Shown piece after piece: positions 18,496 through 60,821 of a stretch of 64,000 nucleotides of DNA (positions are counted from its first letter, which is position 1; every line of letters starts with the position of its first letter). Source of the stretch: Halichondria panicea (lineage: Eukaryota; Porifera; Demospongiae; Suberitida; Halichondriidae); NCBI RefSeq assembly GCF_963675165.1, contig NC_087382.1, positions 5,720,315-5,784,314 of the forward strand, in the 5' to 3' direction. The notes under the pieces were generated by a model that saw nothing but the letters and a program-made list of their open reading frames with translations, did not search any database and was not told where the DNA came from. Made by a program: the position numbers and the translations under genes.

Positions 18496-19846
18496 ATGGT
18501 AAGAAACTACTATTTTTCTTGCGCTATAAATGAATATCAATGTTTTAGATACCGTTGGTGTTGTTAGTGCTGATGGGAGCACTTTCTGTGAATTGCCAGA
18601 GCTTAACATGTCTAGCAGAGGAAATACCTGCAGGGAGTGATGAATTCCAACGTTGTCTCCGCATAATACTAAATGTGAGTTGCCTACAAAATATCAGGAA
18701 TTCTTGCTCTGCATGCATATAGCTATATATAGCTTAAAAAGTGCAGTATTATGTGGGCATCTATAAGTTTTTTCTACTGCACTATAAATGTATGGTATAA
18801 TGTGTCCACATGCATCCATGCAGACAATGTATACACACCGAGAAATTTTAAGTGCCATTTGATTACTAGAATTATAGAACACATACATGTTTATACCCCT
18901 AGCCTCGATTCTAGGTCGCTGGAATCGAGGCTAGTTTATACCATAATTATACCGATAATTATAAGCCCTTTTTTATTCTCATCTACGTACATGCACATGC
19001 AGGCAACAATCGGAGGAAGTGATGCTTTTTGCAGTGATTCAGATTGCAAAACATTCTTTTCTGATGCATATAACAACTGTGGACTCTGTAATCCGATTGA
19101 GTTGGGTATGACATACACATGCATGCACATACACATGCCATGGTATACATGCATGATCACGCAGTCAAGCTATATATATACATAAGGAATGTTGGAGCGC
19201 AGTATATCAAGAGCCAGAGGCCAGAGGGGGTGCATGCTGGAGCGTCCTCTGTACCTCTCTGCTAGCGTACAGTCAGAGGCTCTGACTACACCCCTGAGCC
19301 AAGCATGCATGCGCTTTCCCTGACAACATGCAATTAATATTTTTCGCAGGTTGCAGCACGAGTCTAAATCTGACTGATAATAACGGTGCCCCTGCTCTGT
19401 CTTGCTTGTTTAACGATGTGGCAGCACATCCAAATCTCCAAGAGTGTCAAAGGAGAAGATCACAAGTAAACAATTTACTGCATGCATGGCAAAAATATAT
19501 TATTACATTATAATTCAGAACCTGACAGATTACTGCCTTGCTGACGATTGTTACTTCATAGAAAATGGCTACAACACCTGTGGATTCGATATACACAAAT
19601 GTAACCCTGTCAGGCAAGGTATAATGTTATCAAAACTAACTTCGTGTACTATAGGATATAATTATAAGACATGTATAGTAAAAACGTGCATGATTCTTGA
19701 TTCCTGAATGGTTTATCTATATATATGCAGCCTGTAATGCTCACTTCATGGGAGCTCTACAAGAATGCAACAGTGCAGTAACGGCTGGTCCAACATTCCT
19801 GACTGCAATCATGGTCATGTTCTACTATTTTCTCCAAGACTTTTGA
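18496..19846 (+). CDS. Two-module cysteine-rich secreted protein, probably GPI-anchored (187 aa)
   Basis: Exons 18496-18498 (ATG only), 18549-18674, 19003-19105, 19350-19465, 19519-19618 and 19731-19846; all GT..AG and in phase. A hydrophobic signal peptide (MIPLVLLVLMGALS, to about residue 18) is followed by two related cysteine modules. Module 1: C-x14-C-x15-C-x4-C-x10-C-x2-C-NP-x4-C. Module 2: C-x13-C-x11-C-x4-C-x9-C-x6-C-NP-x4-C, with CYFIENGYNTCGF. NLT and NAT glycosylation sequons are present. The C-terminal ~20 residues are hydrophobic (TFLTAIMVMFYYFL) and end almost at once, like a GPI signal or short anchor. I recognise no named family. Phase-1 introns bound the second module. An intact paralog lies at 57.0 kb. 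Confidence 0.85.
18890..18942. mobile_element. 37-bp hairpin of the AGCCTCGA family in an intron
   Basis: CCTAGCCTCGATTC...GAATCGAGGCTAG at 18898-18934, flanked by exact TTTATACC (18890-18897 and 18935-18942). It sits in intron 2 of the intact cysteine-rich gene. Confidence 0.75.
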
Positions 19847-20138
19847 GTATATATACATGCATGCACTGATCGAAACCTATAATGACTGCAGTTTACAACA
19901 TAATATATAGATGAAAATAGCATGGTTGAGCAACCTTAATCTTCTTAGACTACATAATTTGGGAGACCGATATCAATTTTTTATTGTGGAATAATATGTA
20001 TTAAAATACTGTTACACTGCAAAAAATGAAGTGCGGTGAGCCATGCATTAATTCGGTATATATAGTGAGCACACTCAGAAACTATAGAGTATGAATATAT
20101 ACACAGATCAGTACCTAACTCAGGCTACTCTACACTAT

Positions 20139-20686
20139 AGGGGTTGGTAGATTATGCTAGCATAATTTTGAGCATAATAGACGCACATAGTATAATAGGG
20201 GTCTAAAGAATAATTGCATCGGAAATAGGTATCAATGTCCATTTTTGGTAAAGATCATTACATTAAGTTTTGCATAAAGACGTTTTCATGGCAAAAAATG
20301 CTGAAGGTGGATCAGTTCTGAGATCATGATTATATTAATTATGTCTTGTGGCAGTAGGTTAATTGTGTGCTGTGCTATATATACGTCTCAATTTCGTCTA
20401 TAATTATTGTGTTACATTTTTGGGGAATAATCAGATTTTTATGAGAATAATCGGTGAGAATAATAGGCACACTTTTCAATAGTTTAAGAATAGAATAATG
20501 GGTAGAAAAAAGCATAAATGATAATATAGTGAGTCTATATAATTATATGTTGTGCATGCTTTGGAAGAATAATGTCGGAATCAATAATAGGCGATTTGAA
20601 AAGAATAATAGGCCGTTTGAATAAGCTGTTTTAACTTGAGCATAAAAATAGGTAATAATAACCTCGAGCATAATCTACCAACCCCT
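20139..20686. mobile_element. MITE with AGGGGTTGGTAGATTATGCT ends
   Basis: The 20-bp terminus at 20139 is perfectly mirrored at 20686. The interior is rich in GAATAATAG/CATAATA words. No transposase. It is inserted next to pseudo-exons of a cysteine-rich gene copy. Confidence 0.85.
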
Positions 20687-20689
20687 ATA

Positions 20690-20920
20690 CTATAACTTGA
20701 TTTGGAATGCTTTTGTGCATATAAAAGCCGTTGGTCTGACAGAAGAGGACGTACTATACAATTTTGAATAACTATATATATACTGAGGTCAATGCATATA
20801 ATAGGAGGAATTAAGATATCTCAGAGTAACATAACATTATACTGTCCGGATTAGAACTGTATTTTGTTGAGAAAGAGTCTACGATAAGTATTATTATGCA
20901 GTAATCTTGTTCGAGAGAGT
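20690..20920 (+). pseudogene. Decayed exons 4-5 of a cysteine-rich gene
   Basis: ACTTGATTTGGAATGCTTTTGTG, then ATAGGAGGAATTAAG, TACTGTCCGGATTAGAACTG, TTTTGTTGAGAAAGAGTCTACGATAAGT and CTTGTTCGAGAGAGTA match 24287-24520, and thus the 57.95-58.2 kb exons. Stops and indels are frequent. No transcript is expected. Confidence 0.7.
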
Positions 20921-21329
20921 ATTATATAGGTGCATGAAAAACATTTTGGTCTCATATAGCTATATATAGCTTGCACTCATTCGGTGGATTGTTTCGTTTA
21001 GCGTGATGTACGCTAACAGAACAATCCACCAGGACAAAAAGTACAGGTTGTGCATTTAGCTGTACTTTTGGACACAGTATATATAATTATACTATAATTA
21101 TACTGGGTATATAAGTATACTACCTGTAATCTATGCAAGTGTTTCTGTTTAGCGTGAGCTCATGTTAACCAGAAACCACCATAAAATAAAATAAAATAGA
21201 GGCTGTTTGTTGCTTGAACGTGAGACTAATAATTGACAGACATGCACTCTGCATGGTGTGGGACTCAACCTTCACTAATTAGTTAATTGGCAAGTCTTTG
21301 CGTAAAGGAATTATCTGTTGGCATTGACG

Positions 21330-21560
21330 CCATGTATATACCTAAATTAGTCCGATAATGCAGGTCACTGGCCACATAGCCATTATAGACAGTCAGAGTT
21401 AATTGACCCCACCTTGATACTGTTTACATGCAGAGATAAACGTTTCTGCATCTTAAACCATGCATGCAGCCCAAACAACAGATTAAAGGACATTGGACAA
21501 GTACGGCTGTTGTGAAAATTATTGTCTTATAGCGTTGTGCATCAAGCTTGCAATTGTATA
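21330..21560 (+). pseudogene. Deletion remnant: promoter and exon 1 joined to 3' flank
   Basis: 21330-21520 matches the upstream region and exon 1 of the 57.0-kb gene (CCACATAGCCATTATA, GACCCCACCTTGATACTG, ACATTGGACAAGTA, GGCTGTTGTGAA), with the ATG changed to ACG. It then passes directly into CTTATAGCGTTGTGCATCAAG, which matches the sequence just after that gene's stop (58747-58766). All coding exons in between are missing. Confidence 0.65.
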
Positions 21561-21568
21561 CTTGTTGT

Positions 21569-21903
21569 CCAAGGAGTTGCACTATAGTTGTGCATGGGAA
21601 GAAAACCTAAGAATGTACTAGAATTCAGCAAAAGTAATGAATTCACTAAAATTCACTCAAAACACGTCTTTTGTTACGGGAAAAACTTGACCAATCAGAA
21701 GAGTTTGACGTCATTGGGCAACAAGTTATTGCAGGCTCCTTCGTGCAACATGCCCTGCATGGATGACATATGCCTGAGGGCATTATGTTGCTCCAGTACA
21801 ATAATTATAATATGGCATGTTGCACTTGTGCTGTGCAACTAATACATTATACACAATTTAGGCACGTGGCATACATATTTGCATAATTATTTGTAAAGGT
21901 ATA
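21569..21903. repeat. Dispersed repeat, second copy inverted at 55993-56322
   Basis: GGGAAGAAAACCTAAGAATG...TTGACGTCATTGGGCAACAA...GGCACGTGGCATACATATTTGC is found nearly unchanged on the opposite strand at 55993-56322 and partially at 17210-17370. Both full copies keep an 82- to 84-codon open frame, but the third does not. I treat it as a repeat and not a gene. Confidence 0.7.
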
Positions 21904-21905
21904 AT

Positions 21906-22068
21906 AATGAAAGCACCGCAGGTGCTGATGCCTCGGTGGAGATGCCAAAGCTACATAACATAAAGCTACTAATAGCTGATGAACATTTTTGCAATAATTA
22001 TTTTGCTGCATGCAAACTCAAAGAATGGGTAATGATCGACCATGATTGTTGTTAAAAACGATCGATGC
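21906..22068. repeat. Dispersed repeat, second copy at 51915-52068
   Basis: AATGAAAGCACCGCAGGTGC...CATGATTGTTGTTAAAAACGATCGATG is shared by both sites with one short internal deletion. At the second site it splits a sushi exon. Confidence 0.75.
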
Positions 22069-22219
22069 CAAAAGTTCAATTCTAAAAATTAATGGCTGCC
22101 ATCAGCAGAGCCTTGCAGCTCTCATCCTCACTCTTGCAGCTACCAATAGCTAGCGTTCTAGTACAGAGCTAACTACTAAGTAGAGTAGTAACACTCGGTA
22201 AACAAGTTTGGCTACGTGC

Positions 22220-22490
22220 TCTTCTGAAAAGGCTGCAATGGCATTCCAAGTAAGCAAAACTAGGCATAACTCGAGAACGAAGCATTATTTTGCAAATCCA
22301 CGAATTAAAATCCAAGTAAACATGACTAGAAGCCTATAGAAACTCTTACTTGCACTTGATTCATCCTTGAGCAGTTGTAGCGGTCTACACACACACACAC
22401 ACACACACACAGACACACAGATACACAGACACACAAACACACTACCGTATACCTCGCTTGCGCATGCGCACCGAGGCATAATTATTATGC
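22220..22490. repeat. Divergent relative of the 35.6/41.8/47-kb dispersed element
   Basis: Shares GCATAACTCGAGAA, CCACGAATtAAAATCCAAG, AGAAGCCTATAGAA, TTGAGCAGTTGTAG, a CA-type microsatellite (22389-22440) and a terminal GAGGCATAATTATTA. About 22500-23200 contains a poly-G run (22663-22680) and no gene. Confidence 0.55.
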
Positions 22491-23199
22491 GAGTGAAAAA
22501 CCCAGAGGAAGGAAGGTTGGACGCGCGTCATCCACCGTCAGGTTTTATCTGCCAGATATCTGTAGAATATAATTATAGCTGTTTAATAACTGACTATAAT
22601 ATAATTATGCCTCAACTTTTATGCACTACGCCATGTCTGTGTTCATCCTGCCAAATTCTAGAGGGGGGGGGGGGGGGGGGCGAATTACCCCCCTCACCCC
22701 CTTCAATGCAGCTCTGCTGGTTCAGTGAGAATAAAATTGTATCTGAAAGCCAGAGTGTCTGAAAATCAACCCTTAAACTATATAATTATCGCTGACAAAT
22801 TGAAAACACTTACTATTAGTATTTGCCACCATGTATGTTGCAAATACTGATCAAGGTGTTGTCCTTTTGACATAATATCATAATCATTATAATAGACAAC
22901 GAGTGTTCAAATACAGAGGCGTTGTCCTTTTGACATAAAAATTATAAATTATAATTATCATAACCGAACAACGAGTGTTCGATCTCTTTACACAAAGCGT
23001 TTGCTGTATATTATACGGCTCTTGGTAGTTTGACATGACTACTAGGATTTATAGTCACGAGCAAAAAATAATTATTATAAATATTGGTTGAAAATGTACC
23101 GATGGAAAACTGATATACTCAACTGTTGGCTCAATTGGGCTTCTGCATGAACATGCATAGTTGTGTATGCATACCAATAATCTTTGTCGTGAGCTCTTG

Positions 23200-23760
23200 C
23201 GTATAATTATACATATATACCAGCTAATGCATGTATTAGATTGTAAGCCGCTTATTAAAAATTGTAAGTAATATCATACATACACATTTTGGACCATGTG
23301 TAACTTAGAATTCTTATATTCAACTCAACACGTGTAACACATCACGTGTTACACCCACACACACAACCTGACATCACTACTGCTAAGGTAACACATCACG
23401 TGTTACACCCATACACACAGTCTGACATCACTACTGCTAAGGTAATACTAGTAAGTTAGTTTCTAGTCCAGTTACACATGCATGGACAGTACATATAACC
23501 CTGGCACTATTCTATCGCACATATACTCCTTACATTCTATCGCTGACAAAATACTTAGTATATTTGCCACCATGTATTTATGTTGCAAATGAATGTGGTT
23601 TACATAATTATACAGTGCGTTGTCCTTTTGACATTACCATTATAGACAATGAGTAGTATAGGAGTTGGCCCCACCTCACATATGCAGAGATAAAATAGTT
23701 CAGGTTTCTGCATTAATATAGTCCCAAGACACCAAATAGTTAGAAACTGTAAAAGTACGT
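23200..23760. promoter_or_regulatory. Conserved 5' flank of cysteine-rich gene copies
   Basis: CAGCTAATGCATGTATTAGATTGTAAGCCG (23220) also occurs near 56370. GGCCCCACCTCACATATGCAGAGA with GTTTCTGCA (23660-23715) matches blocks at 21405-21450 and 56885-56955. The shared order before exon 1 of three copies indicates a duplicated promoter region. The tandem TTACACATCACGTG phrase (23335-23405) may be a simple duplication. Confidence 0.5.
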
Positions 23761-24660
23761 ATGATGGCAGCTGTGAATGTGGTAAGAAAAATTAGCTTAT
23801 AAATGCATGCGGTATGTCATTGCATGCCTATATAGATCTAATTATTGTACAGATCAAGCTGACGTTGATTCTTCTCACTGTATTGATAGTACAACCATGC
23901 ATGCAATAAGTGTCAACTGCATGTGCTGTTGAAGAAGATGGCCTTACATGTCTGACTAGAATGATACCAATCAGTAATGATACATTCAGGAGATGTGGAA
24001 CTCTCACATTAGTATGCGTACAATTATTGCATGCAAGAACATGCATTTACCGGATTTTATTACTTGATTGTGCACATTATTTTTATAGGATTCAAATCAA
24101 ACAACTTTCTGCCACAATGATACATGTCGAGACTATTTCTCACAAGCCTACGAAACGTGTGTGGCCTATATGCAATCCAGTTCAGTTGGATAAGTTGCTA
24201 ACCATGCATGCATGAATAATTATGACGCCCTCATACTATTTGTACAGCTTGCAAAGAATCCGCAATTGAAAACAAAAACTACAGCACCACACTTGATTTA
24301 GAATGTTTGTTTGTGGAAGCTGCTGGAGTGGGTTTGGGGGCATGTCAGTCTAAATTAATAGTGAGTTGCTATATACTTCACACGATTTGAATAACTAAGA
24401 CATTCATAGGAGGAAGGTCTTACAGCGTACTGTCTGGATGAGAACTGCTCTTTTGTTGAGGAAGCCTACAATAAGTGCGGATTTGATTGGCATAGCTGTA
24501 ATCCTGTTCGAGAAAGTAAGTGAAAAAATAATGAAATTTATAAGTTACATTTTATGCTTAACATGCAGCTTGCAATAAGCATTTCAGATCTGTGCTGCCA
24601 GAAATGCAACAGTGGAGGAAAACCAACTTCATCAATGGCTAGTATTATATGATTCTGATA
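23761..24660 (+). pseudogene. Two-module cysteine-rich gene, disrupted paralog of the 57.0-kb gene
   Basis: All six exons can be matched to the intact 57.0-kb gene: 23761-23781, 23853-24011, ~24092-24190, ~24249-24360, ~24412-24515 and ~24569-24655. Lesions: TAA at 23907-23909 in the signal peptide; a net +4-nt change in exon 3 around the CGLCNP segment; loss of that exon's GT donor (GGATAAG for GGGTAAGC); and a 1-nt insertion in the last exon (CCAGAAATGC for CCTCAATGC), which removes the hydrophobic C-terminus. Exons 4 and 5 remain open, including CLDENCSFVEEAYNKCGF. Decay therefore looks fairly recent. Confidence 0.8.
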
Positions 24661-24849
24661 ATGGGTTCTGTGCTCATGATTATTTGAGTAACACATGCTC
24701 AAACTTTGAAGGATCAGTCGTCACACTATTCAACTTGTGTATCATGTGTTTTTGTAGAATGAGAATAGAACTTGAATGTCTTTCTACATTATACAAACAA
24801 CCACCATGCATGTTGGTTTACTTGTGAACTGTGAATAATAATTTTGTCA

Positions 24850-25440
24850 GGATGGTTGGGCGATCTCCCTGCATCAACAATCAAGACTATAGTGTTTATA
24901 GGGGTGCACAGACTTATAAACAAGGGGATAGAACAATAACTGCACATGTTTCATTCATTCATTAACACACAAAGCCAAAAAACGCTTAAATCACTGAGCC
25001 AAAATAATTACTTATTGCCCAGCACGAGTGCAACATGACAAATATTGCACTGGAGTAATGCATTATTTTCCCGGCTGTACGAGGGCGCCTGCAATATGGG
25101 TTGGTGGCATAATTGTAGACACGTTTTTTTTGGAGAATTATGTTGGCATGCATGTGAACCTTTATAACAATTATATATGAGGCAGGTTTTGAAAGTATAT
25201 ATACAGGTCAGTATATGGATTAAATGGTGTGTATATAGGCCTCAGGCTGATGGTCGTGACGAAAGTACTGGTGATGCAACATGCCATATACAGAGCACTG
25301 CATGGATTGCTTTGATCTGCCCACTCACTGAGCAACAAGCCGATATGCAGGACACACACCTATATACATACGTCCATGCATGCATATATATAGGAAGCGG
25401 AATTAATTTATACTGTTTGTGTTGCTTGAGTGTGCATAAG
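24850..25440. other. Repeat remnants, no gene
   Basis: 25015-25100 is a fragment of the repeat containing GCACGAGTGCAACATG (also at 56060). 25255-25335 is half of the palindromic MITE at 17965-18251. TCATTCATTCATTAACACA... at 24950 recurs at 26478. Confidence 0.5.
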
Positions 25441-25443
25441 TTA

Positions 25444-36654: not shown

Positions 36655-37835
36655 TCAAAATATTGTGGCCAAAGTCACCAGTATTCCAGTGATCACCATC
36701 ATTGGAACGGCAACAATAGACGCAGCACCACCGCAAACTGTGAGATATAATTTATAGATACAGAAATCGATAAATAATATAGGTGTGATAATTATTCAGC
36801 AGCTAATAATTATTGATAGCTCTTCAATATACAGTAGACTCTCGCTATTCCGGCTCTCTGAAATGCGGCCACCTCGATATACCGGCCATTCGGTTTGGCA
36901 CGGAATGCTAGCTATATGTTTTCTACACAAAACTCAACCTAAAGTACGGCCACTCGCTATTCCGTTTACCGGCCAGTGCTGGCTGTCCCAAATAACGTTT
37001 TCAATGTAATTTTATATGTGTATTACGGCTGGATATGATGTTTTGGGTGTGGTTTAGTAAATAAAATTGGATTACACTTAAATAGAGAGCAGAATGATTC
37101 CTTATCTTTCATTATCCTCGAGACAAGAACTGCAATCAGTGATTAGATTCGAGGTAAGGTCTTTTTTAAGCCGCGGCTAATTATCTGAAGTACGGCCACC
37201 TCGCTATTCCGGCCAAGCTGCATGGTCCCAAGGGTGGCCGGATTAACGAGAGTCTACTGTAGTTCTATGGATTGTTGTATCTCGAAAGCATTTTGTATGT
37301 TAGTCTTGCATGAGAATTGGTTAATTGACTAGTAAATAGCTATCCCATGCATAGGCCACCACGGCACACGGATACAGAAACGTATAATTCATGCATGGCA
37401 GGAGTCATTATATAATTATGCATGCTGCGATTAAGCACCATATACATGCAGCCTATATAATAACTATAGAAGCTATATATACAATTATGCATAAAATTAT
37501 ATAGACTACCCGTATTTGCTATTACATAAATGTTGACTTACGCTGAGTTACGGGGTTCGGTGAAAAATTACATGTGTCGTAAATTGCTGCAAAATCGTCG
37601 ATGCAGGCCAGTCCACATAGTTCTTGAGGACTCTCGAAGGACTGCATGTATATATATATAGTTACATGAGAAAAAGGGGGATTCAAACTTGGGGTTAACT
37701 CACACCAAACATGGTAACGCAGGATCCTAGGGCTGGATTTTGTTGTGCTTCTCGAAATGCACAATTAAGTTGAGTAGAACTTTGACAATTGACTATTGCA
37801 AAGCAAGCCAACAGTACGAAAAGCACAATCTTCAT
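36655..37835 (-). CDS. One-module cysteine-rich secreted protein, probably GPI-anchored (104 aa)
   Basis: Minus-strand exons 37835-37704, 37641-37542 and 36737-36655; GT..AG junctions with phases 0 and 1. Signal peptide MKIVLFVLLACFAIVNCQ, then one module C-x13-C-x13-C-x3-C-x10-C-x10-C containing NPVTQLC, and a hydrophobic C-terminus (VPMMVITGILVTLATIF) that runs to the stop, as in a GPI-attachment signal. It is a clear paralog of the 60.15-kb gene (shared AAS.VAVPMMVI), with the same exon plan as one module of the 187-residue proteins. The second intron contains the pogo-like MITE. The function is unknown; a small extracellular or cell-surface protein is inferred. Confidence 0.85.
36832..37259. 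mobile_element. Pogo/Tigger-like MITE with TA target
   Basis: Starts CAGTAGACTCTCGCTATTCC and ends in the complement of CAGTAGACTCTCGTTAATCC, flanked by TA (36830-36831, 37260-37261). The repeated 'gctattccggccac' motif inside is typical of this widespread family. It lies in intron 2 of the minus-strand cysteine-rich gene. Confidence 0.85.
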
Positions 37836-37849
37836 TGTCTGCAAAAGAA

Positions 37850-43109: not shown

Positions 43110-43870
43110 AGTGTTTCCTTTGATCTGCCCACTCAAAATGCAACAATACTTGATACATGCATTCTTTGATACATTTTGTATTATTATTACCATTTTATTG
43201 GTGAAGGTCACTGGCAGTTCTTGTTAGCAACATACCAGGTTCACCAATTTACTAGTTCACATTCACCATTGTGGTTTGTACATTTGCTCGTAGCTGTACA
43301 TTTGCTCGTAGCTGTACATAATTTTAAGATTCTAATCTAATAATAATTTAATACCCCTAGCCTAGCCCTGTACTGTACACCTGTACATGCATGTCTATCT
43401 AGTCTATAATTATTTTATGTATAATAATTATTATACTATTATATTGCTGTATCCTATAGCTACAGGGGTGCACAATGACGAACCAAAGAAGTTGTCAAGA
43501 TTAGAAGTTGTCAAGATATTAATGGAATGCATGCATGTATACTTAGTACATTTCGTACAAACAAAGTCGATCTGTTCTTAAATACATGTACAATAGAAAA
43601 TGTAACGTACGTACGTACATATGTGTTATAATTATGTCCATGATTATGTCCAATAACAACTTGTTCATCAAAAATTAGCAGTATCGATCTGACAAGTGTA
43701 GATTGAGCATTCACTGACAACTCTCACAGCCTCCTGCCCTTCAACAGGGGATTGTGAGCGTTAGCCAATAGCAATAGGTCATCTTCTAAGTAGAGTCCTT
43801 TAGTACTTACTTCAAGTCAGTCCGACGTACACCACTGAAAATGTAAGAGATGCACAATATGCTACAAATT
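43110..43870. other. No gene recognised
   Basis: AT-rich, with a duplicated GTACATTTGCTCGTAGCT near 43278-43315. 43110-43150 is a fragment of the MITE with TTTGATCTGCCCACTCA. Confidence 0.4.
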
Positions 43871-43874
43871 AGTA

Positions 43875-45590
43875 CAGTACTCAAATTTGTGAAAATGCCT
43901 TGACAACGACCATTATAAAGAACCAGACAGCCCAAACAAAGTTTATAGCAGTTGAAGGATGGTTAAGAGGGCCTACATGTAGAATAATAGCATACAAATC
44001 CAATGTGTGTATGTGTTGTGGCAAAAAATGCGGTAAAATTAATGAAATTAATGTAGCTACAAATTAAATTGATAGGAAACGTACCCAAGTACACATTGGT
44101 GTGACAGGGTCCGGTATAAAGAATCAGACAGCTCACTTGAGGGTGGTTAGGATCGAAGGCCTACCTGCAGAATATTAACTCACAAAATTTGTGACCAAAA
44201 ATATGCTACAAATTAGTACAGTACTCAAATTTGTGTAAATGCCTTGACAACGACCATTATAAAGAACCAGACAGCCCAAACAAAGTTTATAGCAGTTGAA
44301 GGATGGTTAAGAGGGCCTACATGTAGAATAATAGCATACAAATCCAATGTGTGTATGTGTTGTGGCAAAAAATGCGGTAAAATTAATGAAATTAATGTAG
44401 CTACAAATTAAATTGATAGGAAACGTACCCAAGTACACATTGGTGTGACAGGGTCCGGTATAAAGAATCAGACAGCTCACTTGAGGGTGGTTAGGATCGA
44501 AGGCCTACCTGCAGAATATTAACTCACAAAATTTGTGACCAAAAATATGCTACAAATTAGTACAGTACTCAAATTTGTGTAAATGCCTTGACAACGACCA
44601 TTATAAAGAACCAGACAGCCCAAACAAAGTTTATAGCAGTTGAAGGATGGTAAAGAGGGCCTACATGTAGAATAATAGCATACAAATCCAATGTGTGTAT
44701 GTGTTGTGGCAAAAAATGCGGTAAAATTAATGTAACTACAAATTAAATTGATAGGAAACGTACCCAAGTACACATTGGTGTGACAGGGTCCTGTATAAAG
44801 AATCAGACAGCTCACTTGGAGGGTGGTTAGGATAGAAGGCCTACCTGCAGAATATTAACTCACAAAATTTGTGACCAAAAATATGCTATAACTTAGTACA
44901 GTACTCAAATTTGTGAAAATGCCTTGACAACGACCATTATAAAGAACCAGACAGGCCAAACAAAGTTTATAGCAGTTGAAGGATGGTTAAGAGGGTCTAC
45001 ATGTAGAATAATAGCATACAAATCCAATGTGTGTATGTGTTGTGGCAAAAAATGTGGTAAAATTAATGAAATTAATGTAGCTACAAATTAAATTGATAGG
45101 AAACGTACCCAAGTACACATTGGTGTGACAGGGTCCGGTATAAAGAATCAGACAGCTCACTTGGAGGGTGGTTAGGATAGAAGGTCTACCTGCAGAATAT
45201 TAACTCACAAAATTTGTGACCAAAAATACATGATGCTAGTACAGTACTCAAATTTGTGTAAATGCCCTGACAACGACCATTATAAAGAACCAGACAGCCC
45301 AAACAAAGTTTATAGCAGTTGAAGGATGGTTAAGAGGGTCTACATGTAGAATAATAGCATACAAATCCAATGTGTGTATGTGTTGTGGCAAAAAATGCGG
45401 TAAAATTAATGAAATTAATGTAGCTACAAATTAAATTGATAGGAAACGTACCCAAGTACACATTGGTGTGACAGGGTCCGGTATAAAGAATCAGACAGCT
45501 CACTTGGAGGGTGGTTAGGATCGAAGGCCTACCTGCAGAATATTAACTCACAAAATTTGGGACCAAAATATGCTACAAAAAATGCCTTTA
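43875..45590. repeat. Satellite-like array, five ~343-bp dimeric units
   Basis: CAGTACTCAAATTTGTG recurs at 43875, 44219, 44563, 44899 and 45242 (periods 344, 344, 336, 343). Each unit has two related halves of about 170 bp: one with TATAAAGAACCAGACAGCCC and GGATGGTTAAGAGGGCCTAC, the other with TATAAAGAATCAGACAGCTC and GGGTGGTTAGGATCGAAGGC. The array ends degenerately at about 45590. Two more units lie at 49311-49960. Confidence 0.95.
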
Positions 45591-46950: not shown

Positions 46951-49308
46951 ACTAGTGTTCAAGCTGGCGCTGTGCTAATGCCTCTCGCCATGTTTTTGCT
47001 TTCGCTCAAAAGTATTAGAGTGTTATCTATAATGAATTTTATATTAAAGTTAGCTTATCTATATAAAGTCACTGAGAAGAAAAGACTTATTTACATGCAT
47101 CTATTGTAAGTTGTTATTTATTGTATTATGTGGCTTACCAGGACATCAAGAAAAAAGAAAATTGATTCTTCCAGGATCTGTAGTTCAGTGTATATAATAT
47201 CTAAGAAGAAAAGACCTGTGTACATGCATATTGTTATCTATATTGTTATATGGTAGTGTTTTGTGGCTTACCAGGCCCTCAAGACAAGATGATTCTGCCA
47301 GGAGGATCTGGATCTGGATCTTGGATATTATTTTCTCACACATGGGGAATGAGCGCGCATGCGCATTACATCCACAGGAATAACTAGAGCACTAAAGTGC
47401 AAACCCTCGGCTGGTGACATGAAACCAAAAGACTGATATAGCATAATTATAGTGATGTTGTTATCATCATCATGCATGACTTGCACAGCAACTCAGGAGC
47501 AATAAAACTAAACCAGACTGGAGGCATGCTGAAACATTTGAGAACAAGTCTAGTACTATAGATAATATGCACTGTGGATTAGGATCACAGCAAAGAAGCC
47601 TGGAGTCTCAGAGAAGTATGGCTCCAGGTCCTGCATGGATCCCAGTCAGCTAAAGCAAGCTTTCTACTTCAGTGACCCTGTTCCATTGTTCCTGGTATAT
47701 ACAGCTTTCTACTTTAGTGACCCTGTTCCATTGTTTCTGGACCTGGTACAGGATCACTTCAGTTATAAGTAACGCATGTGCAAGTTCTGTTCAAGCTACA
47801 TTTTGCTTGCTTTTATTAGACAAAGAAGCTTTAACACCGAAAGCTGCCACTATTAGAAGTACTGACTTGTTATGTGGAGGCTACCCATGCTGTAAACGCA
47901 GTGCTAGAGCATCCAGGTAAGCAGACCCAGTCACAAGCTTGTTCAAGCTTCTTAGCTTTTGCTCGACAAAGAAGCTTTAACATCACAATCTGTCACTATT
48001 TAAACCAAGATATTGTTGTGTGAAGGCTATCCATGCTGTAAACGCAGTGCTGTGGCATCCAGGTGAGTAGATATACTCGTGACAAACAGACAAACAAACA
48101 AACTAGAGCACTAAAGTGCAAACCCTCGGCTGGTGACATGATTATAAAGAAACCAGAAGACTGATATAATGCAGTGCATATAGTGATGTTGTTATCATCA
48201 TCATGCATGACTTGCACAGCAACTCAGGAGCAATAAAACTAAACCAGACTGGAGGCATGCTGAAACATTTGAGAACAGGTAGTAGTACTATAAATATATG
48301 CACTGTGGATTAGGATCACAGCAAAGAAGCATGGAGTCTCAGAGAAGTATGGCTCCAGGTCCTGCATGGATCCCAGTCAGCTAAAGCAAGCTTTCTGCTT
48401 TAGTGACCCTGTTCCAATATTGTTCCTGGTATATACAGCTTTCTACTTTAGTGACCCTGTTCCATTGTTTCTGGACCTGGTACAGGATCACTTCAGTTAT
48501 AAGTAACGCATGTGCAAGTTCTGTTCAAGCTACATTTTGCTCGCTTTTATTAGACAACGAAGCTTTAACACCGAAAGCTGCCACTATTAGAAGTACTGAC
48601 TTGTTGTGTGGAGGCTACCCATGCTGTAAACGCAGTGCTAGAGCATCCAGGTAAGCAGACCCAGTCACAAGCTTCTTAGCTTTTGCTCGTTTTTATTTGA
48701 CAACGAAGGTTTAACATGAAATTCTGCCACTATTAAAATTAATAACTTGTTGTATGAAGGCTATCCATGCTGTAAACGCAGTGCTGTGGCATCCAGGTGA
48801 GTAGATTCACCTGTCACAAACAAACAAACAAACAAACAAACAAACAAACCAAACGACTACTATAACCCGTGGCCGCCCACGCGCCTCGGGTTAATTAAAG
48901 GGTGTGTCCAAAGAGATCAATTTCACAAATGGCTACTGCTAGCTAGCTGTGTTAACAGATATTTTCTGAGTATTGTAGCTAACAAAAAGCTAGCGCTTTA
49001 GTGCAAGGCTAACTCATATGTTGAATAGAAAGTTTGTGCGGACAGATGATGCTATGAAAGATTCTGAAGAGACTGCAACAGCCTTCAATGTGAGTCAAAC
49101 TAGCCATAACTCGAGAAAGAAGCTTTAGTTTGCTAATCCACGAATCAAAATCCAAGAGAACGTGGCTAGAAGCCTATAGAAGCTGTTAGTTTTCGTCGCA
49201 TTGTAACCGTTGAGCAGTTATAGCTGGAATACACACACACACAGACAGACAGACACACACACAGTCAGCTTTACCGTATCCCTCGTGCGGCTACGCCTCG
49301 AGGCATAA
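46951..49308. mobile_element. Dispersed element E (copy 3), interrupted by a 1.5-kb insertion
   Basis: 46951-47381 and 48894-49308 match the two parts of the uninterrupted copy 2. Between them, about 47382-48893 is foreign. The right end abuts satellite units at 49311. Confidence 0.75.
47382..48893. mobile_element. 1.5-kb insertion made of two ~720-bp direct repeats
   Basis: CTAGAGCACTAAAGTGCAAA opens each half (47384 and 48103). The right end holds a small stem, TAACCCG...CGGGTTA. Each half contains two exon-like blocks ending in GCATCCAG|GTAAGC or GCATCCAG|GTGAGT (four in total at ~47870, 48013, 48598 and 48745) that read CGGYPCCKRSARASR where open. No transposase seen. Confidence 0.65.
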
Positions 49309-49310
49309 TT

Positions 49311-49960
49311 AGTACAGTACTCAAATTTGTGAAAATGCCTTGACAACGACCATTATAAAGAACCAGACAGCCCAAACAAAGTTTATAGCAGTTGAAGGAT
49401 GGTTAAGAGGGCCTACATGTAGAATAATAGCATACAAATCCAATGTGTGTATGTGTTGTGGCAAAAAATGCGGTAAAATTAATGTAACTACAAATTAAAT
49501 TGATAGGAAACGTACCCAAGTACACATTGGTGTGACAGGGTCCTGTATAAAGAATCAGACAGCTCACTTGGAGGGTGGTTAGGATCGAAGGCCTACCTGC
49601 AGAATATTAACTCACAAAATTTGTGACCAAAAATATGCTACAAATTAGTACAGTACTCAAATTTGTGAAAATGCCTTGACAACGACCATTATAAAGAACC
49701 AGACAGCCCAAACAAAATTTATAGCAGTTGAAGGATGGTTAAGAGGGTCTACATGTAGAATAATAGCATACAAATCCAATGTGTGTATGTGTTGTGGCAA
49801 AAAATGCGGTAAAATTAATGAAATTAATGTAGCTACAAATTAAATTGATAGGAAACGTACCCAAGTACACATTGGTGTGACAGGGTCTGGTAAAAGACAG
49901 CTTATACTTGGAGGGTGGTTAGGATTCATGCAAGGCTACAGAATATTAAATCACAACATT
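49311..49960. repeat. Second block of the 343-bp dimeric satellite (~1.9 units)
   Basis: Starts exactly at the end of element E copy 3 (AATT/AGTACAGTACTC). Period 336 (49315 to 49651). The last half-unit degenerates near 49960. Confidence 0.9.
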
Positions 49961-50171
49961 TGTGACCAACTGATGCTACACATAATTATTATTCAAATTA
50001 ATTGTGTATATAAATGCCTCGACAACAATTAATGCAGCCAAAAGTTGATTGTGCCCCACAACGACCTATGTATATAAACAGCAGTGGTATAATAGTTACG
50101 TACGTTATTATAATTATAGTAGATAAGACAACATTTAATATTTATAATTAATTTATGTAACAAAAAATAGG

Positions 50172-51154: not shown

Positions 51155-51349
51155 AAATATTTTGCTTGGAGCCTCCCACACCAGTCAATGGAGATGTGGT
51201 ATTGAATAGTCAAGAGATGAGTGTGGGCACCATGGCTACCTACTCCTGTGACTCTGGGTACGTTCTTGTTGGCCTGGTAACCAGGACTTGTGAGGATGTT
51301 AGAGGAGAGATAATTGGAACTTGGAGTGGAACTACGCCAGCATGTGAAG
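51155..51349 (+). pseudogene. Sushi/CCP module exon
   Basis: IFCLEPPTPVNGDVV...GTMATYSCDSGYVLVG...TRTC...GTWSGTTPACEG shows the four-Cys CCP pattern with the closing Trp. It starts after cttag and ends at a GT donor with phase 1 on both sides, the standard for CCP exons. The exon itself is open. CCP modules are extracellular binding domains. No start, signal or anchor exon is visible. Confidence 0.7.
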
Positions 51350-51482
51350 GTATACACAATAAACAGTGAATAGCTGGAGTATTGTAAACAAAACTCATTG
51401 CCTGTGATTGTATTAACTTCTCACTTAGTTTTTTGTTTACTTTCCAATCATGCTTACATACCATTGCATAGTGATTATTAGA

Positions 51483-51678
51483 TGTCAGCAGTTGACTCAT
51501 CTGACTAACGGAGAAGTCAGTGTTTCTACTGGCACACACGGAGTGAACCTTGGTGTGGGAGCTGTAGCTACCTACTCCTGCAACAATGGCTATGGACTAG
51601 TGGGACAAGCTACCAGGACTTGTGTTAGTGATGGAGGGAGCTCAGGAATATGGAGTGAGAGTGCACCAACGTGTGAAG
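51483..51678 (+). pseudogene. Second sushi/CCP module exon
   Basis: CQQLTHLTNGEVSV...VATYSCNNGYGLVG...TRTCVSDGG...GIWSESAPTCEG. The donor is phase 1, but the nearest acceptor (ttattag) leaves one base before the first Cys codon instead of two. Splicing from the first module would shift frame, unless another acceptor is used. Array integrity is therefore doubtful. Confidence 0.65.
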
Positions 51679-51914
51679 GTTTGTATTATATACAAGGAGG
51701 CCTCAAATAATGGAGTCTGAATGTGTCGGCATGTAGACTGTGTGCATATGCTAATAATTATATTATGGGCTATAACAATAGTCTTTTTTAACGTCTAAGG
51801 TGACTATCATGCATGCTACATGTTCCTGAAAGCTTGGTCTAACATCACCCTCTCTTTAGTTATTCATAAACATCACTGCAAGGAATTCGAAAATAAGAAC
51901 TGAAATATGTAAAC

Positions 51915-52138: not shown

Positions 52139-52255
52139 GTGAGACATACTGAATATATATAATTGTATACCTCAGACGAGCACAAAGTCGTTCATGTTCA
52201 GTTTGCATGTCCTTCCTTCACAAACAATTACCATCTTTCTTTATGCTTTCATTAG

Positions 52256-52347: not shown

Positions 52348-52355
52348 AAGTTGAT

Positions 52356-53390: not shown

Positions 53391-53397
53391 GGGCGTT

Positions 53398-54212: not shown

Positions 54213-54651
54213 GCTATACAGCTGCAAGGCCGGCAGAGACAATATGCTACAGTATAGATTTGCATTAATTAGGAGGGTGTGGCAATCGAAAATCGTTTTG
54301 TGCACAAGGAAATTTGGGATTTCCGTAGCAGCAATTTTTAACTTGCAAAGTGGTAAATATAAAGTCCCTGTTCTGTTTATACGTAGTAAGTGCATAATAC
54401 ACTGATACAGCGCAAATTAAACACTAAAAAGGACGCTCAAGATAAGAGCTTTTTTCTGTTGTTAAATTTACTTTGGCCACCCATGCATGCAGCTATTATT
54501 ATATAATCACGACATTTTGCAGCTTGCTATAGCTTTGCTACATGTAAGTTAGCTATAGCAGTTATGCTAAGTAGTGTAGTGAATGGTGCGTTCTATTTCT
54601 TGTTAGATCTATGTAGAACTATAGGCTAAGCATAATTTAGCTGGATATAAC

Positions 54652-54690
54652 CATAGATAGAAGAGTAAGAGGGATTGGTAACGGAAGCAG
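54652..54690. mobile_element. One end of a family A element
   Basis: CATAGATAGAAGAGTAAGAG, then GGATTGGTAACGGAAG, matches the terminus at 1488. No facing end was found nearby, so the partner end may be lost to the retrotransposon downstream. Confidence 0.55.
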
Positions 54691-55012
54691 TTCACGTGAT
54701 CATTTTACATTGAATCTGCAGTAAAACCTCGAAAACTATCCGCATTACGCCCTATAAACGAGGCTATTTTTCCGGGTAACTTGCTCAAAATAAGAAAGTT
54801 GTGTTTTCTCGAGACATAATCTTTTTCAGCAATTTATAACACACCCAGTCTGTGAGCCATGTGTTGTACTTGCTAATGACTGACCACACCCAGTAAAAAG
54901 GGATATTCCAGTAAAGTTTTAGGCGAACAGCTGCTATTTAGGTTGGCCATGGGTCCCACCCACACCAGACTGTCTTACTACATTACGTACACACTTACAG
55001 CTATCTTTAATG

Positions 55013-55975
55013 TATGCACGATGGATGATGAAGTAATCCTGGAAAGAGTGGAAGAATGTATTCATGACCACTATGAGAAATTGTATTCCCACAGCAGAAA
55101 TCGCAACCAGAAAGAATCTTCCTTGGCTAACGAAAAAGGAGATATCAAAAAGAGAAGCTATTACTACAGACTTGCCAGAAAATACAACAAATTAACCCTC
55201 TGATTTTGCAACCTACAAACAGATTAGAAATAAGGTTGTGACCACTCTCAGACAGAGTAAGCAAGATTTCTTTAGCACCCTCAAACCTCAGTCAAAAAAA
55301 TGTTAGACAGCTCTGAAATACTTAATAGCTCTATCCCATGTCTTATAGTAAATGGCCGCAAAATCGAACAGGATGAAGAAAAGGCCCATGCAGGTCCTTA
55401 ACAAACAGTTTTATGCAAATTTCAACCATTCACTTCCTCCTCTGACCTCTATACAAGTACCTTGGCATGTGGATCTCTCTCATGACCTCTCATGGTCAAA
55501 AACACATAGAAGGAATGTGCAGAAATGCCTGCAAGCAGGTTGTCTATGGCCACTCGTCACTAGAATGTTTAAGACAACTCTACATCCCACTTGTGAGATC
55601 AAAACTGGAATATATGCTGCCCCTGTTTGGGATCCACACCAAAAAACAAATTCTCACAAAATAGAAAAAGTACAAAAGTTTGCCCTTAAAATCTGCACAA
55701 AACTTTGGAATAGGGACTACGATTCCCTATTAGATACTGTGGACCTACCGTCCCTTTCCACAAGAAGATTGTACCTGAAACTATCATACCTTTACCAGGT
55801 AATAAATGGTATAACTTTAAATTCCCTGATCCACCACTGGAAAGAAGAGTAAGCCCTCTCAATCTAAAAAGCACAAAAAATATACAGTTTGAAAGACCAA
55901 TTTGCAGGATAAATGCATATATATGCGAACTCTTTTTTCCCAAAAGCAATATCTATATGGAATGAACTACTATAA
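55013..55975 (+). pseudogene. 5'-truncated, frameshifted non-LTR retrotransposon
   Basis: In alternating frames: a leader with YYYRLARKYNK, then GMWISLMTSHGQKHIEGMC, ACKQVVYGHSS, LRQLYIPLVRSKLEYMLPLF, followed in the next frame by APVWDPHQK, KIEKVQKFALKICTKLWNRD, LPSLSTRRLYLKLSYLYQV. This is the characteristic C-terminal region of LINE reverse transcriptases (CR1/L2/Jockey-type). The catalytic YADD region is absent and at least two frameshifts separate the blocks. The 3' boundary is about 55975. Confidence 0.8.
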
Positions 55976-56339
55976 TGTTCCACTTTAGCATTATATACCT
56001 TTACAAATATGCAAATATGTATACCACGTGCCTAAATTGTGTATAATGTATTAGTTGCACAGCACGAGTGCAACATGCCATATTATAATTATTGTACTAG
56101 AGCAACATAATGCCCTCAGGCATATGTCATCCATGCAGGGCATGTTGCACGAAGGAGCCTGCAATAACTTGTTGCCCAATGACGTCAAACTCTTCTGATT
56201 GGTCAAGTTTTTCCTGTAACAAAAGACGTGTTTTGAGTGAATTTTAGTGAATTCATTAGTTTTACTGAATTCTAGTACATTCTTAGGTTTTCTTCCCACA
56301 ACTAGTGCAACTCCTTGGGGAAATCTCTGCGTGTAAATA

Positions 56340-57003
56340 AGTGACCTGCATTATCAGACTAATTTTACATACCAGCTAGTGCATGTATCAGATTGTAAGC
56401 CGTTTAGTCATACATGGAGATGTTTTGGACCATGGGCAGTACAGTACGTATAACTATTTATACGCTGGCACTATTCTATAAAATTATCACACATATTCCG
56501 ATTATAATCGAGAAAAAAATCGCTACTTTATAGTCTTGTATTGCTAAAACGTGTAAGCGTGCTGCATGGTTATAACTGCTAAAATAGGCATAGACCTTTA
56601 AATATAAGTGAGTTGCACAGACTGAGCATATATGCTTGTGGTATAATATTATTATACACTGTGTGTAGAAATAATGAGTGCAGCTTGTACATAACATGCA
56701 ATGATGTACATAGAATCCATAAAGTAGCGATTTTTTTCTCTAAGTACGTATAGTTGGCAAATATTTACGTAAGTAAATTATCTATTGGCATGGACGCCAT
56801 GTACTTTAATGCATTTTATTTGTAGTTTACCAATAAATGAAGGCGCCACTGGCCACATAGCCATTATATATAGTCTGAGTGAGTGACCCCACCTTAATAC
56901 TTGATACTGTTTATACACGCACGTGCATGGCATGCAGAGACAGTTTCTGCACTTAACTAGCCCAAACGAAAGATTGGAGGACACTATTAAACATTGGACA
57001 AGT
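56340..57003 (+). promoter_or_regulatory. 5' region of the 57.0-kb cysteine-rich gene
   Basis: Shares CCAGCTAGTGCATGTATCAG, GACGCCATGTA, CACTGGCCACATAGCCATTAT, GACCCCACCTTAATACT, TGCAGAGACAGTTTCTGCA and GGACACTATTAAACATTGGACAAG with the 21.3- and/or 23.2-23.7-kb copies. Conservation is strongest in the 120 bp before the ATG, which suggests promoter and 5' UTR. A clear TATA box was not identified. Confidence 0.5.
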
Positions 57004-58692
57004 ATGGCTGTTGTGAATACCGTGAGCAAGTATAGCTTATATGCATGCATGTGTATTAAGACCTGTCTCTGTATTTCTGTTAGTACGTACTATAATAACT
57101 GTATCCATGCACAGGCTATCAAGCTGACATTGATTCTTTTGATTATACAACCATTTGTTTACTGTGTCAATGAACAAGACGGCCTTACCTGTTTGGCTGA
57201 AAGGTTACCAAGCAGTGACAAAACATTTCAGGAGTGCAGAACTCTCACATTAGTATGTTGACAGAGATATCACAATAGTTACACAGACACTACAGAATTT
57301 AAGCTAATTGACCATACTTAATAGGTGTGAAATAATTTATAGTAAGATTCACTGGTATATCTGTTACCACAAGAGTAACTGTTTTTGTAGACAGGAGAAG
57401 GACTGTCTATAAGACGTAGCCAATTAATGTAAATTGCAATGGTGTCTTGTAATACCTCGATACCCTGTTCCAAATCAATGTGAAATAATGTATAGTAAGA
57501 TTCACTGGTATCTGTAACCACAAGAGTAACTGTTTTTGTAGACATGCAGGAGAAGGACTATATACCAGACGTAGCCAATTGCAATGGTGTCTTGTAATAC
57601 CTTCCCTGTTCCAAATCAATGCAAGCACTAAAATCTGCAAAGCCTATTGACTGTCGTTGTTAGTGAAAGGGACTACTTATGAATTATTATAACCAAAACA
57701 GGGGGATCCAACATCAGATGTTGATGTCTCATAGTAGCCCTTGTCCTTAATTGTTGTCCACGCATGCTTTCTATTATAATTATATAGGAGACAAATCAAA
57801 CAACATTCTGCACTAATGACACTTGTCGAAACCACTACACATCAGCCTTCAATTACTGTGGCCTATGCAATCCATTTCAGTTGGGTAAGCATATTTAACA
57901 CTGCATGCGTGATACAATTAATTTGTCATGTATATATATTTTTATATAGCTTGCGAGGAATCAACAACAAATTATAGCAGCTTGACATGCTTGTTTGTGG
58001 AAGCTACTGGAGATGGCTTGGGGGAGTGCCAAAGAAAAAGATCTGTAAGTTACGTATAATAGTGCTGTGTTTGAATACAGTTAACACACTTCCTATAGGA
58101 GGAAGGTCTCACAGCGTACTGTCTGGATGAGAGCTGCTATTTTATTGAGGAAGCCTTTAACAAATGTGGGTTTGCTTGGCATGGCTGTAATCCTGTTCGA
58201 GAAAGTAAGTGAAAAAAAAATATAATGACATACATTTAATTACTTGTTTATATGCTAAACACCAAGAGTAGATAAGAGTAAGAGTGTTGAACTGCTAGTA
58301 ACAGCTGCAATTTCCTGCTCCTGCGTCATCACTCGATATAGTATAATCAGTACTGATTAGTTATATGTTAGCAACACTTCCCAGAAACCGCACATGCTTT
58401 GATTGCGCAGTTCAGTGCTACAAACCACAGACCACAGTTTACTTAACAGCATGCATGCACTCATTAATTGAATAGTGACGACAGTGATGACGCATGTCAA
58501 GGCAAATGCGGTTCCACGATTATACTATAGCAGTTCAACACTCTTACTCTTATCTACTCTTGTAAACACATGCATGCAGCTTGCGATAAGCATTTCAGAT
58601 CTGTGCTGCCTCAATGCAACAGTGGAGGAAAGCCAGCCACTACAATAACAGCTATTATGATTCTGATGATGTGTTCCATTCTCATGATTTGA
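57004..58692 (+). CDS. Two-module cysteine-rich secreted protein, probably GPI-anchored (188 aa)
   Basis: Exons 57004-57021, 57115-57252, 57788-57884, 57950-58044, 58099-58204 and 58580-58692; GT..AG throughout, phases 0,0,1,0,1. The signal peptide (IKLTLILLIIQPFVYC) spans exons 1-2. Module 1: C-x14-C-x12-C-x4-C-x10-C-x2-C-NP-x4-C. Module 2: C-x12-C-x12-C-x4-C-x9-C-x6-C-NP-x4-C, with CYFIEEAFNKCGF. The tail TITAIMILMMCSILMI is hydrophobic to the stop. Sequons NQT, NDT and NYS suggest secretion. It is the same plan as the 18.5-kb gene but clearly diverged. The pseudogene at 23.8 kb is its closest relative here. The role is unknown; a cell-surface or secreted ligand, receptor or defence-type protein is speculation. 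Confidence 0.87.
57318..57640. repeat. Intronic direct duplication (~148-bp unit)
   Basis: GTGAAATAATTTATAGTAAG...GGTGTCTTGTAATACCT occurs twice (from ~57328 and ~57479) in intron 2, with TTCCAAATCAATG after each. It is open on the minus strand in part, but not gene-like. Confidence 0.8.
58256..58569. mobile_element. 300-bp MITE with exact 7-bp target duplication in intron 5
   Basis: The body at 58263-58562 has ~34-bp inverted ends beginning CAAGAGTAGATAAGAGTAAG. TAAACAC flanks both ends exactly (58256-58262 and 58563-58569). The right end lies only ~17 bp from the acceptor of the last exon, and the gene still has intact splice sites. Confidence 0.88.
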
Positions 58693-59024
58693 GTAATCGT
58701 GCCCAAAACTTTGAAAGACCAGTTCAAAATTACTGCAACACTGTATCTTAGCGTTGTGCATCAAGAACTATATATAATTATATATAGCATTTATATTAGC
58801 TTGCAATTATGGCTTGTGTATAATTATACATGTTACGTACAATGCATGTGGCATGATTATTTGCATATTTGTATTTATATCTGAACGTGGAACATTAATT
58901 CCTTAGACTTCAGACCTGAAGTATATAACTACATAATAATTATATTGATGAACTTGTAAGCATCAAAACCAGTATAATTATGGATGAACTAACTTGAATA
59001 ATGTTTTACACCCAAAATGTCATG

Positions 59025-59140
59025 TACCATGCTAGCCTCGACCCTAGGCCGATCTGTCTCCAATTGAACGCTATATATAGGTCGACTCCTAGCAGCATTC
59101 AATTGGAGACGGATCGGCCTAGGGTCGAGGCTAGTACCAT
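59025..59140. mobile_element. Hairpin element, AGCCTCGA family
   Basis: GCTAGCCTCGACCCTAGGCC...GGCCTAGGGTCGAGGCTAG at 59031-59134, with an inner stem GTCTCCAATTGAA. TACCAT is duplicated at 59025-59030 and 59135-59140. A solo half (GGCCTGGTCTCGAGGCTAG) is at ~59309. Confidence 0.8.
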
Positions 59141-59915
59141 ACATACATGTGTGCACTGATATGTAATGGTGTTCAGAGAAACAAGGTCACCCATCATGAC
59201 GAATGGTTTAATTTTGCTCAAGAGACTATATATAATGTACACAAGCCAGCTCTTGCTAGCGTTGAGACCATGAGCGGCTTGGTATCAAGGTAAGTGCAAG
59301 TGTAATGGCCTGGTCTCGAGGCTAGCGCAAGACTGACCTGTATCTCTGCATGTATGTGCTTCTCAGCAAAATTGGTGGAAATAATCATTTGACCACCCCT
59401 GAAAAACAAAACAAATTTAAAGTCTAAATGAGTTGAATTGGGCCCTTCAGAATGGTGTCATAACACTGTCATAGTTCGCTAAATTTGATTTTTCATTATA
59501 TACCTTTGGGTTAAAAAGCACTTCTATAATCTATATACTCTATAGTTGTAGAGCTGATAAACTTGCAATTAATGTACCCCACCCACACACATCTATACAG
59601 CATTATAAAATTCTAAACAGGACACATTTCCCCAAACAAATCGATATTCTGCTGCAAGGTCAACTCTACGCATGTACATGGCTGATCCTATATAAGGAAA
59701 CACATCCTTAGGCTTTATACAAATTATAGAGGAAGCAGACAATTAAGATCTACGTTATTATTTATTTCCATGTAGGAAAGGTATACAAGCAGGCAACCAC
59801 CCACGATGGCTATAGAGAGAATAATTAAGGAAAGAGGAAATGAACTCCATTATGATCCCAACGATCAGCCATCTTGGCTTGTACATGCATGCAACTTCAT
59901 AATGTATGGTCACTT
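59135..59915. other. Intergenic, no gene supported
   Basis: An isolated 43-codon frame from ATG 59806 (MAIERIIKERGNELHYDPND...) precedes the 60.15-kb gene but has no splice partner or family. Otherwise nothing recognisable. Confidence 0.35.
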
Positions 59916-59917
59916 AG

Positions 59918-59928
59918 TATATAAGGAG
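59918..59928 (+). promoter_or_regulatory. Candidate TATA box of the one-module gene
   Basis: AGTATATAAGGAG lies ~235 bp upstream of the ATG at 60154. A spliced 5' UTR is implied by the acceptor gtctttgcag just before the start exon. Confidence 0.3.
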
Positions 59929-60153
59929 ATTATTTAAGGGCACTTACACTACCGTATATATTGTCTAGTACATCACTCAAGACAACCTGATCAAAGAATC
60001 AATCAATCTTACTCCAACTGTCAAGCCCAAGTCAAAACAGTACGAACCTCACTTCAATATATAGTCATCGACTATAAATCTATAGTATATATAATTACGC
60101 ACCACTATTAAACACATGCATGCACACACATAATAATCGTGTCTTTGCAGGGA

Positions 60154-60821
60154 ATGAAGACTGCATTCTTTCTCCTCCTAGCCTGTGTTGTGGTGGCCTA
60201 CAGTCAATTTCCTGAACCTACAGTGGAGCAAGCACGGTGCTTGGTAGATGGAACAAGAAACAACTCTACCTTACAACAATGTCAAACAATGATTTTATCT
60301 ATGGTACGTCAAGTTATAAATATTGCTAATTAATTAGCTAATTTATAGTGTCCTATTATTCTTCAATTTTGCTAGTTCCTATAGAAGTCTCCAAAAAAGA
60401 TGCTAGCATAATTTGCCAAGCCCTATTGTCGGTCCCTATTTGATAACACATTATACGTACACCTAAAGCTAATTAAGTCGTTGCTCGAAATTTTTTCACA
60501 TCATTATAGATGGGTGACCGGGAAATTTGTAGCCTCTCGTGCATCGGCGATTATTCGATGTTGATCGATGACTGTCAAATCACACCAAACCCAGTGACAG
60601 CTAGTAAGTTATAAGTATACTTTACATGCTGGTTTCTGTACACATGCACTGACATGAGATTATTAACCAACCAAAATCCCTAACTGCATGCATGTACCGC
60701 GCCATGCATGCATGTCACTCTTTCATCTTACTTTCCAGCTTGCAGTGATGCTGCATCTACAGTTGCTGTCCCAATGATGGTGATTATTGGAATAGTCGTG
60801 GCTACGGCCTCACTGTTTTAA
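60154..60821 (+). CDS. One-module cysteine-rich secreted protein, probably GPI-anchored (108 aa)
   Basis: Coding exons 60154-60303, 60510-60603 and 60739-60821, with an acceptor (tttgcag) 3 bp before the ATG implying an upstream non-coding exon. Signal peptide MKTAFFLLLACVVVAYSQ. One module: C-x13-C-x13-C-x3-C-x10-C-x10-C, with NPVTATC. Hydrophobic tail VPMMVIIGIVVATASLF. Intron phases 0 and 1 match the minus-strand paralog at 36.65 kb, and match each module of the two-module genes. The start is chosen at the first ATG after the acceptor because it opens the signal peptide. Function unknown. Confidence 0.87.

Follow-up and report, generated by a model that had tools for sequence, protein, structure and literature searches.

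What kind of protein is encoded by the small cysteine-rich genes that recur along one stretch of the genome of the sponge Halichondria panicea? The stretch (contig NC_087382.1 of assembly GCF_963675165.1, forward-strand positions 5,720,315 to 5,784,314) is hereafter called the window; it is 64,000 nucleotides long and is part of the contig that we call C6, in a genome of 131.5 Mb in 39 contigs. The original prediction, made from the letters of the window, had placed there four intact genes, named here g1 to g4, each encoding a signal peptide, one or two copies of a two-exon cysteine module and a hydrophobic C-terminus. These genes were recovered at the same coordinates, and they belong to a multigene family with copies at several places in the genome.

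A two-exon module with a cysteine frame

Rebuilt from the raw sequence, g1 to g4 are all open from ATG to stop, and all introns of the models are GT-AG (Table 1); splicing was deduced from the sequence and from the paralogs. In g2, the ATG lies at 37835, and its exon can start three nucleotides upstream, at 37838. Within the window, exon-level matches link g1 to the g3 locus (E-value (E) 1.6e-18) and g2 to the g4 locus (E 2.7e-10). In addition, the same exon set and phases were found again in six further modelled genes outside the window. The structure of the four genes is therefore not due to chance, and the idea of a real multigene family is supported.

All six window modules are split by a phase 0 intron and end at a phase 1 intron, as had been proposed. 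In the spliced proteins, the distances between the first five cysteines are 14/15/4/10 and 13/11/4/9 in the two modules of g1, 14/12/4/10 and 12/12/4/9 in those of g3, and 13/13/3/10 in both g2 and g4. Each module closes with NP-x4-C. Hence, the predicted spacing (C-x12-14-C-x11-15-C-x3-4-C-x9-10-C...NP-x4-C) covers all six. A seventh cysteine stands immediately before NP in the four modules of g1 and g3, and is not found in g2 and g4. Two types can thus be distinguished: type I (g2, g4), with one six-cysteine module, and type II (g1, g3), with two seven-cysteine modules. The last cysteine of a module is followed by G, S, P, T, D, E or N, with N in some type II modules only. The first half-module shares its exon with the signal, and first modules have no upstream phase 1 border. 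The second modules of g1 and g3 are indeed bounded by phase 1 introns, as expected of a unit that could duplicate in frame.

One family with copies across the genome

By eye, types I and II look little alike beyond their cysteines. Profile comparison of eight type I with nine type II modules gave a probability of 90.6 (E 1.3e-6, score 34.5); in three of the nine type II rows, one residue at a junction was incorrect, an error that probably has little effect given so wide a score margin. When the type II columns other than cysteines and gaps were shuffled, none of 60 trials reached 34.5 (maximum 21.8). Equivalent intron places and phases in both types agree with a common origin. Judged by these comparisons, the two types are related beyond their cysteines and form one family.

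The genome was searched with seven single-protein queries, and the counts of exon-level matches are lower bounds. In two rounds, fifteen and six stretches were retrieved for reading. At least 14 copies have a frame open from module to tail, four in the window and ten outside. Two broken copies in the window and at least seven partial loci outside were also found. Among the outside copies, six type I genes (L029, L032, L034-L037) could be modelled from ATG to stop, with more than one possible acceptor at the start of the second exon in L029, L032 and L037. In four type II copies (L028, L039, L040 and L041), the frame stays open between the first module and the stop. One of them, L028, has a signal-like exon of hydrophobic character; a short exon with an ATG is seen upstream, not joined to the model. 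The partial loci, with part of a gene only, are L030, L031, L033, L038, L042 and L043, together with an additional last exon within L032; their missing exons may lie beyond the retrieved stretches. L031 (a signal exon) and L030 (a last exon) share a strand, are separated by about 15 kb and may be one gene. Other candidates were rejected: of five loci on C1, C3, C4 and C10 (L044-L048, two of them on C10), the four that were read in translated frames (L044-L047) were judged unrelated by eye. A pattern was matched by 76 stretches in prokaryote contigs and 19 in viral ones, none of which was confirmed as a relative.

How did the second module arise? A FastTree phylogeny was built from 18 modules. 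In it, the first modules from five type II genes cluster (support 0.73), as do the type II second modules (0.87), and type II is set apart from type I (0.95). Because first and second modules form separate clades, a single internal module duplication before the spread of the type II genes would be the simplest history. The predicted capacity for in-frame duplication thus appears to have been used once at that stage. L039 and L040 (on C12, at 5.90 and 5.96 Mb) depart from this regular plan, since their additional upstream exons are irregular, which suggests further, less tidy events. These exons start like the second exon of a module and end like its first, with both borders apparently in phase 0. 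The sequence of L041 was read upstream to a point short of the corresponding region. L041 differs from L039 by one or two residues; at non-cysteine positions, one of 62 residues differs in module 1 and one of 68 in module 2, with no synonymous difference there. Therefore, some of the copying is recent.

Ends, core and surroundings

The N-termini are signal-like by eye, and a hydrophobic C-terminus lies at or near the stop in most measured copies. Seven tails (g2, g3, g4, L028, L039, L040 and L041) have a maximum 15-residue hydrophobicity of 2.42-3.18 and at most one charged residue in the last 20. By hydropathy, a hydrophobic stretch running to the stop without a charged tail, as expected for a glycosylphosphatidylinositol (GPI) signal, was found in g2, g3 and g4. 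Because signal-like N-termini are combined with hydrophobic C-termini, the proteins are probably GPI-anchored at the cell surface, as judged by inspection and hydropathy. The GPI-type tail of the original prediction is hence plausible for these three genes, weaker for g1 and doubtful for L037.

In the eight type I genes, the ends are better conserved than the core. Identity is 75% in the signal, 37% in the core without cysteine columns and 74% in the tail; pairwise averages with cysteines kept are 71%, 43% and 67%. Nonsynonymous divergence (dN) is 0.17, 0.68 and 0.23 for signal, core and tail, and synonymous divergence (dS) is 1.00, 1.00 and 0.31. Without cysteines, the core dN/dS is 0.69 (bootstrap 0.46-0.97), and 0.83 (0.48-1.30) once g4 and L037 are left out. 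For type II, nine of 15 gene pairs gave non-cysteine dN/dS values of 0.49-1.08 in the first module, 0.37-0.88 in the second and 0.36-0.63 in the tail; among the other six, the five pairs with g1 are saturated and L039 versus L041 is without synonymous change. Overall, these ratios describe a cysteine frame with a loosely held remainder and do not demonstrate positive selection.

Besides the intact genes, the window holds a broken type II copy and two further pieces of the family, at 9627 and 16458, which may belong to one dead copy, their connection being a supposition. Between these two pieces lie a transposase frame, which we take to be of piggyBac type, and a minisatellite that adjoins it. 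Elsewhere in the window are tandem arrays with a related-looking unit, two sushi (CCP) domain exons, and a 166-codon frame that presumably resembles the end of a non-long-terminal-repeat retrotransposon protein.

Table 1. Members of the family and neighbouring features, in window positions
Feature	Position	Strand	Exons	Description
g1 (type II)	18496..19846	+	18496-18498, 18549-18674, 19003-19105, 19350-19465, 19519-19618, 19731-19846	187 residues, with signal, hydrophobic tail and two modules of seven cysteines each; frame open, introns GT-AG in phases 0,0,1,0,1
g2 (type I)	36655..37835	-	37704-37835, 37542-37641, 36655-36737	104 residues, with signal, hydrophobic tail and one module of six cysteines; frame open, introns GT-AG in phases 0,1
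g3 (type II)	57004..58692	+	57004-57021, 57115-57252, 57788-57884, 57950-58044, 58099-58204, 58580-58692	188 residues; two seven-cysteine modules; spliced model from raw sequence
g4 (type I)	60154..60821	+	60154-60303, 60510-60603, 60739-60821	108 residues; one six-cysteine module; spliced model from raw sequence
Broken type II copy	23853..24681	+		stop in signal exon, frame break in second exon of first module, last exon broken
Remnant of module second exon	9627..9725	+		nearest g1 (61% identity); contains a stop
Remnant of g1-like last exon	16458..16552	+		frame broken
Minisatellite	10507-12308			159-bp units, 11.4 copies, 96% matches
Transposase frame	12279-13949	+		open, 556 codons; DDE_Tnp_1_7 domain, E 8.8e-69
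Tandem array	43856-45579			344-bp unit, 5.0 copies
Tandem array	49307-49980			336-bp unit, 2.0 copies
Two sushi (CCP) domain exons	~51157-51680	+		E 9.9e-12 and 3.4e-10
Truncated near-copy of first sushi exon	near 52255			~1.1 kb downstream
Open frame	55352-55852	+		166 codons; without Pfam match at E 0.01

Known families and rival readings

Searches of Pfam, NCBIfam and PDB sequences gave weak matches only, the best at E 0.011, and no match recurred across the family, in line with the earlier statement that no named domain family could be recognised. The Pfam scans ran to E 10, 1 and 10, and the filters of the scanner drop most weak matches. VGLL4 matched one of eight sequences (E 0.011, 16.2 bits for a cut-off of 27) and was taken as chance. 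The likeness to Diedel (PF13164) and Stig1 (PF04885) consists of weak profile scores against single modules: each matched one of 17 module rows (E 0.019 and 0.12) and was absent from eight singly scanned modules. Stig1 also appeared in two of the four full proteins, at E 1.4-2.4 with 9.1 and 9.9 bits for a cut-off of 24.1. We regard these as chance matches, like MGSA and NhaD in NCBIfam (weak, in one or two sequences each) and the antibody chains retrieved by phmmer from PDB with g3 (E 0.42 and 0.63). Against PDB, family profile A4 gave no match; A7 gave a ubiquitin ligase (RLIM) and a transferrin-receptor-binding cystine-dense peptide (E 0.1-0.66), and A8 a Rab-related GTPase and SLX1 (E 0.19-9), all ascribed to chance. 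No PDB profile match was better than E 0.1, and no description of the family was found in the part of the open-access literature that was covered.

In gene plan, the closest parallel is Ly6/uPAR. According to PMC6600238, these proteins consist of small cysteine-rich modules, are secreted or often GPI-anchored, and are encoded by genes that often stand in small clusters and carry one or several modules. Each domain is built from an exon pair, generally flanked by phase 1 introns, and extra domains keep this exon structure; the LU domain has ten standard cysteines (with losses of single bonds), the tenth followed by Asn, and adopts a three-finger fold (PMC6600238). Set against this description, the sponge family shares small cysteine-rich modules encoded by exon pairs, phase 1 borders (for the second modules of g1 and g3), one or two modules per protein, a probable anchor and the grouping of genes in the window. 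However, it has six or seven cysteines per module, a different spacing, NP before the last cysteine and no Asn rule after it, and its first half-module is fused to the signal exon. UPAR_LY6 was not among the matches listed in the Pfam scans of family sequences. The genome search with this profile gave one match, on C2 (E 1.4) and at no family locus, in a search whose control gave a signal in none of 14 genomes. Because cysteine number and spacing differ, the Asn rule is missing and a profile match is absent, the family, as far as its sequences tell, does not belong to the LU proteins.

What could such proteins do? They would be small secreted proteins, most likely retained on the outer cell surface through a GPI anchor, where one or two compact modules, held by disulphides, would be displayed for binding to an extracellular partner. 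The conserved ends would deliver and anchor the protein; the cysteine frame would tolerate surface change, so that copies might take different ligands (microbes, neighbouring cells, matrix), and new variants would arise through birth-and-death turnover. The presence of both broken and intact copies in the window and copies at several genome places speak for this reading. We give an even chance to the view that disulphide-held modules with a loosely constrained core are displayed at the surface and bind outside the cell. The stronger divergence of the core than of the ends hints at a possible role in recognition or defence. A more specific version is decidedly unlikely: that the genes form a lineage-specific family under birth-and-death turnover, whose products are GPI-anchored, serve in recognition and have a disulphide fold not yet described. 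Its conserved end exons would then deliver a fast-diversifying core, making it a candidate for self/non-self or microbe recognition in an early-branching animal.

Several observations weigh against surface display with a changing core. No dN/dS is clearly above 1, and loose constraint fits the numbers as well as adaptive change. The low dS of the type I tails (0.31 in eight genes, 0.25 in six) hints at a possible exchange of end exons between copies, which may explain part of the contrast between ends and core; the signal dS likewise is 0.28 in the six-gene set (1.00 with g4 and L037). The g4 signal is divergent, with 5-8 of 17-18 residues identical to the other signals. Compared with other type II genes, g1 has module dN/dS values of 0.15-0.30 (with saturated dS capped at 3) and a tail that has diverged as much as the modules (3-5 of 22 residues identical); this tail is also less hydrophobic (1.71) and ends in FLQDF. 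The L037 tail is short with two lysines, which makes its GPI fit doubtful. No signal was resolved for L039-L041 in the sequence read, and a single-sequence structure model (predicted local distance difference test (pLDDT) 34.5) gave no usable structure. A core dN/dS near 1 rather than above it would equally suit weakly constrained, lineage-specific structural or matrix proteins in which residues other than the cysteines count for little, and whose copies would be gained, altered by drift and lost with no arms race involved, as would the broken window copies and the partial loci elsewhere. We consider this possible though doubtful, since signal, cysteine frame, splice sites and tail stay in register across the ten modelled genes (g1-g4 and six of type I); the exceptions are minor (L037, with one cysteine gap shortened), and the genes are not simply decaying.

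A conserved signal, fixed cysteines and a fast core are reminiscent of many secreted defence peptide families. Hence, the products could also be secreted defence or symbiosis peptides, in which the C-terminal stretch is removed or serves as a transient hold, leaving the free module to act on microbes; for aphids, novel secreted proteins with a link to symbiosis have been described (PMC3574423). We judge this highly unlikely, because most full copies carry a hydrophobic tail, which in type I evolves more slowly than the core. We also regard it as unlikely that the family is an outlying branch of a known domain family, beyond the reach of sequence search (GDNF-receptor/GAS1-like, for example, or another small helical cysteine domain); this reading overlaps the others, and our confidence figures accordingly sum to more than one. 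A small helical disulphide domain is presumably compatible with the spacing C-x3/4-C-x9/10-C plus one more C, and the single-sequence model shows helices, at useless confidence. On the other hand, the best Pfam match was VGLL4, no GDNF match was listed in the scans of family sequences, and the PDB profile searches fell short as described. The genome search with the GDNF profile found nothing, as did its control, and is thus uninformative.

Many families of early-branching animals match nothing in the domain catalogues, and this is one of them. Since its module is defined, gene models and a set of paralogs are at hand and the contrast between ends and core can be measured, a role in recognition or defence becomes testable here. 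In addition, a gene plan in the style of Ly6/uPAR, with an exon pair per module, phase 1 borders and a probable anchor, is seen in this sponge with a different cysteine frame.

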